From Sphingobacteriales bacterium (lineage in GTDB: Bacteria; Bacteroidota; Bacteroidia; Chitinophagales; Chitinophagaceae), in NCBI GenBank assembly GCA_004144185.1, contig SEFP01000005.1:1-64000 (forward strand): a stretch of DNA of 64,000 bases, written 5' to 3'. The notes under the pieces were generated by a model. The model saw only the letters and a program-made list of their open reading frames with translations. It was not told where the DNA came from and did no database searches. Shown in pieces: positions 34,191 to 36,667 of the stretch. A program made the translations under genes and the position numbers. How positions within the stretch are numbered: position 1 is the first letter of the stretch; every line of letters starts with the position of its first letter.

Positions 34191-34220
34191 TTTGCATCCT
34201 GCCGGCTGAAATTATCTTTA
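34191..34220 (+). promoter_or_regulatory. Promoter of the ECF sigma operon
   Basis: -33 TTTG (34191-34194), 18-nt spacer, -7 TATCTTTA (34213-34220; one mismatch). Housekeeping-type promoter; leader about 60 nt. A small palindrome CTGATTTTAATCAG lies upstream at about 34131-34148. Confidence 0.5.
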
Positions 34221-34283
34221 CCGCTTTTCCCAACCTTAAAGCCGCATTCACCCGTCTGTAAAGGTGCTTAAGCTTTTATTCTT

Positions 34284-34859
34284 TTGTCAATAGCCTTGGC
34301 CTTCCCCGCAGCTGCCCAAACGAGCGAGTTGGAAACTCTCATTCAGGGGTGCGTCCGCAACGAGCGGAGCGCCCAGGAACGGGTGTACCGACTGTTCTAT
34401 GGCCGGATGATGGCACTGGTCCGTCGCTATATCGACAAACAGGAAGTAGCGGAAGAGTTGTTGAATAATGGGTTTTTACGGGCGTTTCAAAAAATTGCGC
34501 TATACAACTTTCAGGGGTCTTTTGAAGGGTGGCTGCGTAAGATTGTGTTTCACGCGGTCTGTGATTATGTGAAAACAGCTGATAAGCCCGGTACCATGGT
34601 TGCCCTCAACGATACCCACGAATTTGTATCGCAGAGTGATGCCAGCCGGCTGGAGTATGACGAACTCATTAAGTTGGTGCAGGAATTGCCACTGGCTACC
34701 CGCGCAGTGTTCAACATGTACGTGATGGATGGGCTTTCACACCGCGAAATCGGTGAAGCCCTGCAGATTAGTGACGGAACCTCCAAGTGGCATCTTTCAG
34801 AAGGACGGAAGATGCTCCGGGAGCGGATTGAAAAGCTTAAGTTGAACTACAAACAGTAA
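34284..34859 (+). CDS. ECF-type RNA polymerase sigma factor
   Basis: The 191-aa sigma factor has region 2 (YRLFYGRMMALVRRY, the ELLNNGFLRAFQKI core-binding helix and GSFEGWLRKIVFHAVCDYVK for -10 recognition) and region 4 (LPLATRAVFNMYVMDGLSHREIGEALQISDGTSKWHLSEGRKML) for -35 recognition. No ATG is available: an in-frame stop lies at 34269-34271, so the start must be TTG at 34284, 34296 or 34329. The family usually begins near the ETLIQGC segment, favouring 34329. It is followed 15 nt later by a membrane-spanning partner that probably controls it. Confidence 0.9.
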   Translation: MSIALAFPAAAQTSELETLIQGCVRNERSAQERVYRLFYGRMMALVRRYIDKQEVAEELLNNGFLRAFQKIALYNFQGSFEGWLRKIVFHAVCDYVKTADKPGTMVALNDTHEFVSQSDASRLEYDELIKLVQELPLATRAVFNMYVMDGLSHREIGEALQISDGTSKWHLSEGRKMLRERIEKLKLNYKQ

Positions 34860-34874
34860 AATTTTATCCGGCTC

Positions 34875-36608
34875 ATGGATAAGCAAAAAATAAGTATTGA
34901 TGACCTGTTCCGGCAGCAGCTTTCCGATCGGGAAGAAAGCATGCCGCCCGGTGCATGGTCCCGGATGTCCGAGTTGCTTGATCAGCAGCCTTCACGGGTG
35001 CTGGCCGGCCGCAATCGGGGCAAAGGCGGCATTCTGGTTCTCCTAACGGCCCTGCTGGCACTGGGTGCCGGCGGATACGCGTATCAGACTCACCAGTCGG
35101 AAGCAACCGAAACGGCCACACCGGATACCAACATGCCGCTAACGGCTGCAATCCCGGCAGCACCAGTTGCTGAAAACACTCCGGTTTCTGAATCCTCAAC
35201 TTCCGAAACGGTTGCATCCAATGCACTGCCCAAAGGCTCGCAAACGATGCCTGCCAAAACACCTGCTACACCTGCTGCTTCCGGAAAAACGGCTGTTTCG
35301 GCTGCCCGCTCTTCCGTAGCGGTAGCGTCTACGGTTGCTGTACGGAACGCTCCTACAACTCCGGCGCGCTCACAGCCGCCTGTAGCCCTGACACGGCCAG
35401 CGGCTTCTGCTGGCTCCACATCCAAACCCGCATTAATCACTCCGGTAACGATCACTCCGGTTCCGGCGCTTTCCGAAACAACTCCTGCGGTACAGCCGGT
35501 CGCCCGTGAAAGCGTTCAGATTGACCCACTCAATTGGGTGTCGTTTTCGATTATGTCCGTCTTTCAGGAGCCGGTTGTCCTCGCGATGCATCCTGAACGG
35601 GTGGTTGCATTCCTGCAACAAACGCTTGCACCGTCCGGAAAATCTACTTCCGGAAGTCAGGCTACAGACCTGAATCATTGGTCTGCCAAATCACCAAAAG
35701 GCAGTGCCTCAGAAACACCTGTACCGGCTTCGGTTGCAACGACATCTCCGCTTTCGGTTATCAATCCTGCTCCAAAAGCTTCGGTAGCATCTGCAAGTCC
35801 TGTAGCATCTGCAAGTACGGCTCCGGCGCAGGCTGTTCCGGAAACAACACCGGTTGCTGGCACGCCTGATGCTGCCTTGCAGGCCTCCCGTTTTGTCGGG
35901 GGCGTTCTGGCGGGTATCAACAGTACCCTGAGTGGTGGCTCCGGTGCGCTTCAGGGAATTCAGGCTGGTATCTACGGACTGCTGAAACTGAATGAAACCT
36001 GGTCGCTTGGGGGTGAGCTTCAGTACCTGTATCGCCTCAACAACAGTATGAACTTTAAAGATGACTATTATACAGGCAAGGTTCTCAGCGAAGGCACCCT
36101 CGTCCGCAATGGTCAGACGTATTACCCGGTTCGGTACGATGTCGACTCCATGCTGAGTCGCTACAGCTTTACGTCTTACAGCAGCCTGTCCCTGCCGCTG
36201 TATGTACAATACAACCGGAATCGGCTTTCCCTTTATGGAGGCCTTAACCTGGGCTTTCACTTCCGGCCGAACGTAGCTCGCGTGGATGTAAAAATTGCAA
36301 CGATCAGTCGCTTCGATACGCTGGCGGCCGGCATGCCGATTGTAGCGCCTGCCTCCAGAGCTTCGGATGTCTCTCTCAGCGATTTCGACAGCCGTTTCAG
36401 CGTCGGGTATCTGGCCGGTGCCAAATATCAGATCACGTCTCAGCTGCATCTGGACCTGCGGCTGACCCAGCAGCTCTGGGACCATCTGCGGCAACGGTCC
36501 GTTGGCGCTGCCAAAGTATCGGAAACGTACCTCTACCTGCCAACCATTCAATTGTCGGCCGGGTATCGCTTCCGGAACCCTTCGAAGGCCAAGCCAAAAC
36601 AGCCTTAA
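34875..36608 (+). CDS. Putative dual-membrane-spanning anti-sigma factor with outer-membrane beta-barrel
   Basis: The 577-aa protein has three parts. Residues 1-50 are cytosolic and carry ISIDDLFRQQLSDREE...PPGAWSRMSELLD, a short anti-sigma-like helix motif common in Bacteroidota. Residues 51-70 (GGILVLLTALLALGAGGYAY) form one inner-membrane helix. Residues 71-333 are a low-complexity Ala/Pro/Thr/Ser linker with an in-frame 18-bp tandem repeat (residues about 304-315). Residues 334-577 are an outer-membrane beta-barrel of the porin/PorT type: GIYGLLKLNETWSLGGELQY, LPLYVQYNRNRLSLYGGLNLG and a final strand LPTIQLSAGYRFR. One chain would touch cytoplasm, periplasm and outer membrane. It resembles the Dma proteins of Bacteroides thetaiotaomicron, which couple outer-membrane state to an ECF sigma factor. 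It lies directly after the sigma gene; function is inferred. Confidence 0.8.
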   Translation: MDKQKISIDDLFRQQLSDREESMPPGAWSRMSELLDQQPSRVLAGRNRGKGGILVLLTALLALGAGGYAYQTHQSEATETATPDTNMPLTAAIPAAPVAENTPVSESSTSETVASNALPKGSQTMPAKTPATPAASGKTAVSAARSSVAVASTVAVRNAPTTPARSQPPVALTRPAASAGSTSKPALITPVTITPVPALSETTPAVQPVARESVQIDPLNWVSFSIMSVFQEPVVLAMHPERVVAFLQQTLAPSGKSTSGSQATDLNHWSAKSPKGSASETPVPASVATTSPLSVINPAPKASVASASPVASASTAPAQAVPETTPVAGTPDAALQASRFVGGVLAGINSTLSGGSGALQGIQAGIYGLLKLNETWSLGGELQYLYRLNNSMNFKDDYYTGKVLSEGTLVRNGQTYYPVRYDVDSMLSRYSFTSYSSLSLPLYVQYNRNRLSLYGGLNLGFHFRPNVARVDVKIATISRFDTLAAGMPIVAPASRASDVSLSDFDSRFSVGYLAGAKYQITSQLHLDLRLTQQLWDHLRQRSVGAAKVSETYLYLPTIQLSAGYRFRNPSKAKPKQP

Positions 36609-36636: not shown

Positions 36637-36667
36637 AAGCACCGGTCGCAAGGCCGGTGCTTTTTTT
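36637..36667 (+). terminator. Terminator of the ECF sigma operon
   Basis: Stem AAGCACCGG / CCGGTGCTT with the loop TCGCAAGG and a T7 tract. Confidence 0.93.

Follow-up and report, generated by a model that had tools for sequence, protein, structure and literature searches.

The window analysed here, positions 1 to 64,000 of contig SEFP01000005.1 from a Sphingobacteriales bacterium (assembly GCA_004144185.1; a genome of 3.3 Mb, G000 below), carries on its forward strand a gene for an extracytoplasmic function (ECF) sigma factor and, directly behind it, a gene for an anti-sigma protein that appears to bridge both membranes. We regard it as probable that the two form a pair of the EcfO-Reo kind, in which an outer-membrane barrel signals to the sigma factor and so acts on the pair's own operon and on a regulon of type IX secretion system (T9SS) cargo genes. 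Computation supports the architecture of the anti-sigma protein, the pairing of the genes, the predicted docking on the sigma factor, the homology to EcfO-Reo, a conserved promoter and the association of its motif with target genes. The locus comprises the following features:

34,229-34,257, forward strand: ECF-type promoter with CCCAAC (-35-like) and GTCT (-10-like), 26 nt upstream of the start codon TTG, conserved across core loci
34,284-34,859, forward strand: ECF sigma factor gene, 191 residues, TTG start, product in the same clade as the sigma factors of EcfO loci
34,875-36,608, forward strand: gene of the dual-membrane anti-sigma protein, 577 residues (Pfam, structure model)
34,875-34,985, forward strand: cytosolic anti-sigma domain, residues 1-37, modelled jointly with the sigma factor as one strand, 5-7, and two helices, 8-16 and 27-37
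35,022-35,096, forward strand: single transmembrane helix, residues 50-74 (structure model; N-terminus inside by positive-inside charges)
35,097-35,873, forward strand: disordered periplasmic linker, residues 75-333, 58.7% Ala+Pro+Thr+Ser, low predicted local distance difference test score (pLDDT)
35,883-36,575, forward strand: OmpA-like outer-membrane beta-barrel, about residues 337-567 (Pfam, structure model, fold match)
36,638-36,667, forward strand: terminator-like hairpin followed by a T run, 3' of the anti-sigma gene, read by eye and unscored

A single-chain anti-sigma protein of four parts

The four-part architecture of the anti-sigma protein in one chain is confirmed. A first-pass annotation of the window had described a cytosolic anti-sigma-like motif, one inner-membrane helix, a linker of about 260 residues rich in Ala, Pro, Thr and Ser, and an outer-membrane barrel, and the structure model, Pfam and the composition bear this out. 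The N-terminal motif is conserved, with D9 and W28 invariant across 32 alignment rows. A single hydrophobic segment, residues 51-71, lies above the threshold used, and four Lys or Arg residues before the helix against none after it would place the N-terminus inside. AlphaFold2, run on the whole protein with a 32-row alignment (mean pLDDT 61.6, predicted template modelling score (pTM) 0.45), gives short helices at 8-18 and 27-36 and the membrane helix at 50-74, with a pLDDT of 62-74 for residues 1-40, leaves residues 70-332 nearly all below 50 and returns a block at 341-570 with 81-98. The strands of this block span 339 to 565, so that the barrel set beforehand as a test of the annotation, at residues 334-577, is present in the prediction and is OmpA-like; the model can be read as eight membrane strands with long outer hairpins. 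Pfam OMP_b-brl matches the protein with 37.0 bits (cut-off 28.7), and the best solved match of the barrel by VIA-align is OmpA (1qjp; Z 16.7, root-mean-square deviation (rmsd) 2.4 Å, 133 residues aligned). By its whole sequence the protein is single-copy in its genome, as is its anti-sigma domain at E<=0.001. A chain of this kind would bridge both membranes and could carry a signal across them.

An island within the linker at 35,505-35,640 (residues ~211-255) resembles the nearest relative, L031, by eye and contains a low-confidence helix at 240-250.

The sigma gene and predicted docking

That an ECF sigma gene directly precedes the 577-residue protein was likewise correctly seen: its 191-residue product matches sigma regions 2 (Sigma70_r2, E 2.7e-8) and 4 (Sigma70_r4_2, E 3.9e-12) of Pfam, and 15 bp separate the two genes on the same strand. 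Only the start had been placed wrongly, at 34,191, since a gene beginning there would swallow the promoter at 34,229-34,257. A search for an ATG start of the sigma gene found none, and TTG is the aligned start codon in 33 of the 39 loci tallied (34,284 in the window; homologous sites in L031-L070); this conserved start may perhaps serve to hold sigma synthesis low. The sigma factor, which may belong to ECF21 given the clade it shares with the sigmas of the Bacteroides loci, scores 71.7 bits against TIGR02985, under the cut-off of 126.4. Because both genes occupy one reading frame, we also considered that they encode one protein and rejected this, as frame sharing in 15 of 41 loci (the window and 14 others) is close to the third expected by chance and therefore ordinary.

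The contact between the two proteins was modelled by reading the sigma stop codon as Gly, which yields a fused chain, with an alignment of 43 further rows (mean pLDDT 87.1, pTM 0.78). Residues 4-33 of the anti-sigma protein reach a pLDDT of 93-97 in this joint model, against the 62-74 of residues 1-40 when sigma is absent. The joint model holds two strand elements in all, sigma 114-116 and anti-sigma 5-7, which should therefore pair with one another. The anti-sigma motif is predicted to fold against the sigma factor, a contact read from strand pairing rather than from coordinates; an absence of contact between residues 1-50 and sigma finds no support here, the motif folding confidently only in the joint model. 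VIA-align of the joint model, with matches confined to the sigma part (residues 11-187), retrieved sigma factors solved with their anti-sigma partners, namely 1or7_B (sigmaE/RseA; Z 13.1, rmsd 2.0, 91 aligned), 5wuq_A (SigW/RsiW; Z 13.0, rmsd 5.0, 152 aligned) and 4cxf_A (CnrH/CnrY; Z 11.6, rmsd 5.6, 149 aligned), and sigma factors bound to RNA polymerase are also among the matches.

Distribution of the pair

Searches for the pair within Bacteroidota, the phylum of the window, found matches to the anti-sigma protein in 45 of 195 genomes of the window's family. The sigma gene lies just upstream on the same strand in 40/40 family loci fetched, with gaps of -4 to 68 bp; one of these sigma genes is cut by a contig end, and the set leaves out those hits that lay at contig ends, along with some others. 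Both ends of the window protein are matched by BLAST within one open frame in 37 of 41 members, and in these the linker between the two conserved ends measures 255-660 residues. A profile of the anti-sigma domain alone extends to 206 of 395 genomes of the class, and a broader one to 116 of 149 genomes of the order holding genome G534. All 30 loci opened from the class-wide search again have a sigma gene upstream, the window and four other loci of its family being included among them, two of these four being the same genes as L069 and L070.

Kinship with EcfO-Reo and Das-Dma

The pair is supported as a divergent member of the EcfO-Reo / Das-Dma kind, a kind already in print. Resemblance to the Dma/Das pairs had been noted in the first-pass annotation, and it holds both by architecture, the definition of Dma being the same four-part domain organisation (PMC13088901), and by homology to members in Bacteroidales. 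The low sequence likeness stated there applies to the barrels, whose profiles (family against Bacteroidales members) did not align (probability 1.4%) and so gave no evidence of orthology between them, although those of both groups match Pfam OMP_b-brl families. In the same comparison the anti-sigma/transmembrane parts align at a probability of 96.3% and E 1.5e-9. Of the 66 Bacteroidales proteins examined, 60 are matched at E<0.01 (in a set of 400 sequences) by a profile built from the family only, and 64 of the 66 loci have a sigma gene upstream. The 66 derive from a scan of named genomes of which the best 80 of 418 matches were kept; the other 14 had no open reading frame matching the search expression, among them that of Phocaeicola vulgatus (L267), which was studied separately.

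The sigma factors lead to the same conclusion. In a tree of 62 rows, selected with a profile of sigmas from the window's family, all 54 domain-paired sigmas cluster together (100/99), separate from eight further ECF sigmas of the window genome, the latter being long-branched and open to misplacement; two of the rows, fam_L070 and class_L113, are one gene. The sigmas of the window family share a clade (100/99) with the locus sigmas of Bacteroides fragilis, B. faecis and P. vulgatus. Aligning anti-sigma/transmembrane profiles together with a common sigma clade thus indicate homology beyond mere resemblance.

The matches kept from the named-genome scan include Bacteroides ihuae, which is of the same class as the window's genome and of a different order, as well as B. 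fragilis, B. faecis, P. vulgatus ATCC 8482 and others. The loci of B. fragilis, B. faecis and P. vulgatus have one layout, with a NigD-like gene pointing away from the sigma gene and the anti-sigma gene behind the latter; the NigD label was given by eye in these three and by a Pfam match in B. ihuae. NigD_N matches occur in eight genomes, at least seven of which also carry the anti-sigma domain, in some cases beside nigD. This layout fits the published EcfO-Reo-NigD system (PMC13114119, PMC9308784) and the link described between Dma1 and NigD1 (PMC13088901), and from species, layout and NigD-like neighbour the loci L197 and L267 are likely the ecfO-reo genes themselves.

EcfO-Reo of B. fragilis and P. 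vulgatus thus shares with the window pair the order of sigma and anti-sigma gene, the succession of N-terminal domain, one helix, linker and outer-membrane barrel, a homologous anti-sigma domain and the sigma clade; the published description has Reo extending through five compartments (PMC13114119). It differs in barrel profiles that do not align with those of the window family, in its NigD neighbour (G000 has no NigD_N match) and in the upstream regions, as the promoter motif described below is absent from the 64 Bacteroidales upstream regions searched for it. Dma1/Das1 and Dma2/Das2 of B. thetaiotaomicron, compared by their published description, have the same four-part organisation, but the outputs reported for them are vesiculation, nigD1 and polysaccharide loci (PMC13088901), in contrast to the T9SS cargo predicted for the window family.

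A conserved promoter

Of 41 loci, 31 have the pattern CCAAC-N18-GTCT ahead of the sigma gene, where mononucleotide shuffling leads one to expect 0.07, and the window, L031, L063 and L064 have a spacer one longer. With either spacer the motif is present in all 35 core loci that have upstream sequence, some of which are near relatives and hence not independent. The remaining six comprise one locus lacking upstream sequence and the five most diverged members (L065, L066, L067, L069, L070), which were set aside as non-core before the promoter search. Among 27 loci of the wider class the strict pattern was not found and the loose pattern twice (L112, L115). The sigma factor of the pair would itself read the CCCAAC-N18/19-GTCT motif.

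Genome-wide distribution of the motif

The pattern CCAACN{18,19}GTCT gave 47 hits against 71 for the control in the window genome alone, and prediction of a regulon from this genome failed; it took a genus mate and the rest of the family for comparison. With CCCAACN{18,19}GTCT and the reversed pattern as control, 33 pair-bearing genomes hold 398 sites against 290, and 18 family members that lack a match to the pair hold 91 against 223. The per-genome ratios of sites to control have medians of 1.40 with the pair and 0.41 without it (Mann-Whitney P 1.2e-6). The 33 were drawn from the 45 matched genomes, leaving out G004, G011, G016, G032, G033, G046, G079, G087, G092, G099, G111 and G156 (G011 has 9 sites against 7, G111 15 against 7), and the 18 from 20 genomes listed as lacking a match. 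As 16 of these 18 fall below the control and two tie, the association of motif and pair rests on the genomes without the pair being still lower relative to the control.

Predicted targets: type IX secretion cargo

In G000, six of the 15 sites lie 21-174 nt before genes whose products match a C-terminal T9SS sorting domain, of type A in L398, L400 and L401 and of type B in L396, L397 and L399 (the type B match of L399 scored 33.8 bits in one scan and 39.0 in another, the cut-off being 35). One further site each precedes the sigma gene of the pair, a second ECF sigma gene (168 nt) and a small lipoprotein gene (46 nt). Three of the 14 type B genes of G000 have a site within 200 nt, against 0.006 expected for even placement (P 4e-8). 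Its genus mate G182 shows four of 13 (expected 0.012, P 9e-10), two of the four type B matches, L409 and L411, being below the family cut-off. Including these two, eight of the 25 sites in G182 precede genes with a T9SS tail (L403-L407, L409-L411), the genes at most of the remaining sites having been left unscanned. Seven site-gene pairs look orthologous by eye between the two genomes: four involve secreted proteins, and the other three are those of the sigma pair, the second ECF gene and the lipoprotein.

The lipoprotein-like product (L302, 1858-2106, forward strand, and a counterpart in L334) is cysteine-rich and 82-83 residues long, with the motif 34-46 nt upstream. The second ECF gene (L402, 7482-8060, and L411, 69-647, both reverse strand) has the motif 168-178 nt upstream in the two genomes, which makes a sigma cascade possible.

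Similar targets appear in other genomes. Of 13 opened sites in G005, five stand before genes that match a T9SS family, which in two cases is PorP/SprF (185 and 202 bits; cut-off 90.55); the 13 are all but one of its 14 sites, the site of its own sigma gene being left out. In G069 the proportion is five of seven opened sites, hand-picked from 20. A regulon that takes in both PorP-like proteins and type B cargo would agree with the reported association of the two for anchorage of the cargo (PMC9143113). We infer from these targets that the pair may act as a switch from the outer membrane to RNA polymerase for type IX secretion cargo.

Proposed mechanism and alternatives

In the mechanism that we favour, one helix would anchor the anti-sigma protein in the inner membrane while the N-terminal ~40 residues keep hold of sigma on the cytosolic side, and the C-terminal eight-stranded barrel would sit in the outer membrane, joined through the disordered tether of ~260 residues. 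A change at the outer membrane, such as a ligand, envelope stress or a failure of barrel assembly, would be passed down the chain and free the sigma factor. Freed sigma would transcribe its own operon from CCCAAC-N18/19-GTCT and drive a small regulon of T9SS cargo, the lipoprotein and the second ECF sigma gene, with PorP/SprF added in relatives. Insertion in the membranes, repression, the nature of the trigger and release, which might proceed by tension or by proteolysis, are presumed parts of this scheme. Envelope stress is our first guess for the signal by analogy, because the related pair of P. vulgatus is induced by antibacterial toxins and envelope stress was proposed there (PMC9308784). 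A more specific version, which we consider improbable, is that the barrel reports the state of T9SS in the outer membrane, e.g., free versus occupied anchoring sites for cargo, to RNA polymerase in a feedback loop between cargo and capacity.

Several observations weigh against this mechanism. The support for this protein is entirely computational. The joint model is a fused chain in which nearness is forced by the fusion itself, and it comes without an unrelated-sigma control, coordinates or an interface score. Positive-inside charges agree with an N-terminus inside in only 31 of 41 members, and the diverged L066, L067, L069 and L070 match by BLAST at the N-terminal part only. The window genome shows no excess of the motif (15 sites, 16 control), and six of its 15 sites lack a clear target. 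Nine of the 33 pair-bearing genomes fall below their control (G000, G094, G082, G169, G136, G188, G105, G031, G192) and three tie; two of the nine, G031 and G192, have ACCAAC in the promoter of the pair itself, which thereby escapes the pattern. Finally, the motif CCAAC-N18/19-GTCT is absent, in strict and in loosened form alike, from all 64 upstream regions searched in Bacteroidales, and it was not found in L267.

Among the alternatives, the regulon may belong to another ECF sigma factor, e.g., the one at ~815,500 of G000:C15, with the pair as merely one of its targets. In favour of such a reading, ECF promoters are alike among themselves, and the motif also stands before the second ECF gene in two genomes (L402, L411). 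The motif precedes the sigma gene of the pair in 35/35 core loci with upstream sequence, however, and its frequency relative to the control tracks the presence of the pair, and we consider this alternative unlikely. Slightly less likely again is that the protein is made as one chain and then cut in the periplasm, so that barrel and anti-sigma anchor act separately, the tether is interrupted, and the barrel serves as a released signal or is left over as a by-product. The variable length (255-660) and sequence of the linker between conserved ends are expected of a processed region and equally of a spacer; against cutting stand the single open frame that matches both ends in 37 of 41 members and the description of relatives as one chain (PMC13088901, PMC13114119). 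The chance neighbourhood of an ordinary OmpA-like barrel gene and an unrelated sigma gene, which the frequency of both kinds of gene in Bacteroidota might suggest, was rejected as practically without likelihood, being contradicted by the pairing in 40/40 loci, the conserved N-terminal motif and the joint model.

Comparison with other regulatory systems

Anti-sigma factors of the FecR/RsiW type resemble the window protein in being inner-membrane proteins with a cytosolic sigma-binding domain, but they end in the periplasm, and sensing at the outer membrane requires a second protein.

Links between ECF sigma factors and type IX secretion are known from other systems in print. SigP of Porphyromonas gingivalis likewise belongs to the ECF sigma factors and governs type IX secretion genes, but is itself controlled through PorX/PorY, and the motif proposed for it differs from CCCAAC-N18/19-GTCT (PMC4800418, PMC7712824). 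The SM6/ECF promoters of Flavobacterium psychrophilum, with a CGT box, precede genes that include T9SS parts and an ECF/anti-sigma pair; the targets listed there differ from ours in being T9SS machinery (PMC9723704). A dual-membrane anti-sigma protein tied to T9SS cargo was not found in the open-licence literature searched. The novelty would consequently lie in the output, i.e., the promoter motif and the list of T9SS cargo targets, and not in the kind of the pair.

With these results, the design of an anti-sigma factor that reaches across two membranes in a single protein is no longer confined to gut Bacteroides but extends to another order of the class, where the anti-sigma domain proves common. 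They also provide the family with a promoter sequence and a target list open to direct testing, linking sensing at the outer membrane to T9SS cargo. Were the feedback version true, a single polypeptide would match cargo synthesis to secretion capacity.

Variant forms of the anti-sigma domain

The C-termini of proteins with the anti-sigma domain differ among members of the class. In L114 (1501-2373) the domain and helix are followed, in place of a barrel, by a sorting domain of the T9SS (CHU_C, E 2e-16), an arrangement in which export of the tail itself could be the signal; the corresponding match in L119 is weak. Short members with frames of ~230-280 residues consist of the anti-sigma domain and the helix (L115 and L133, and by length also L129, L134 and L137), and a Pfam barrel match is absent in L115 and L133, the two scanned. 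Other proteins carry sigma-binding domains in tandem before one helix, six in L187 (1660-3702) and four in L188 (1473-3212), and L120 and L131 have two copies each; such tandem proteins could bind several sigma molecules at once.

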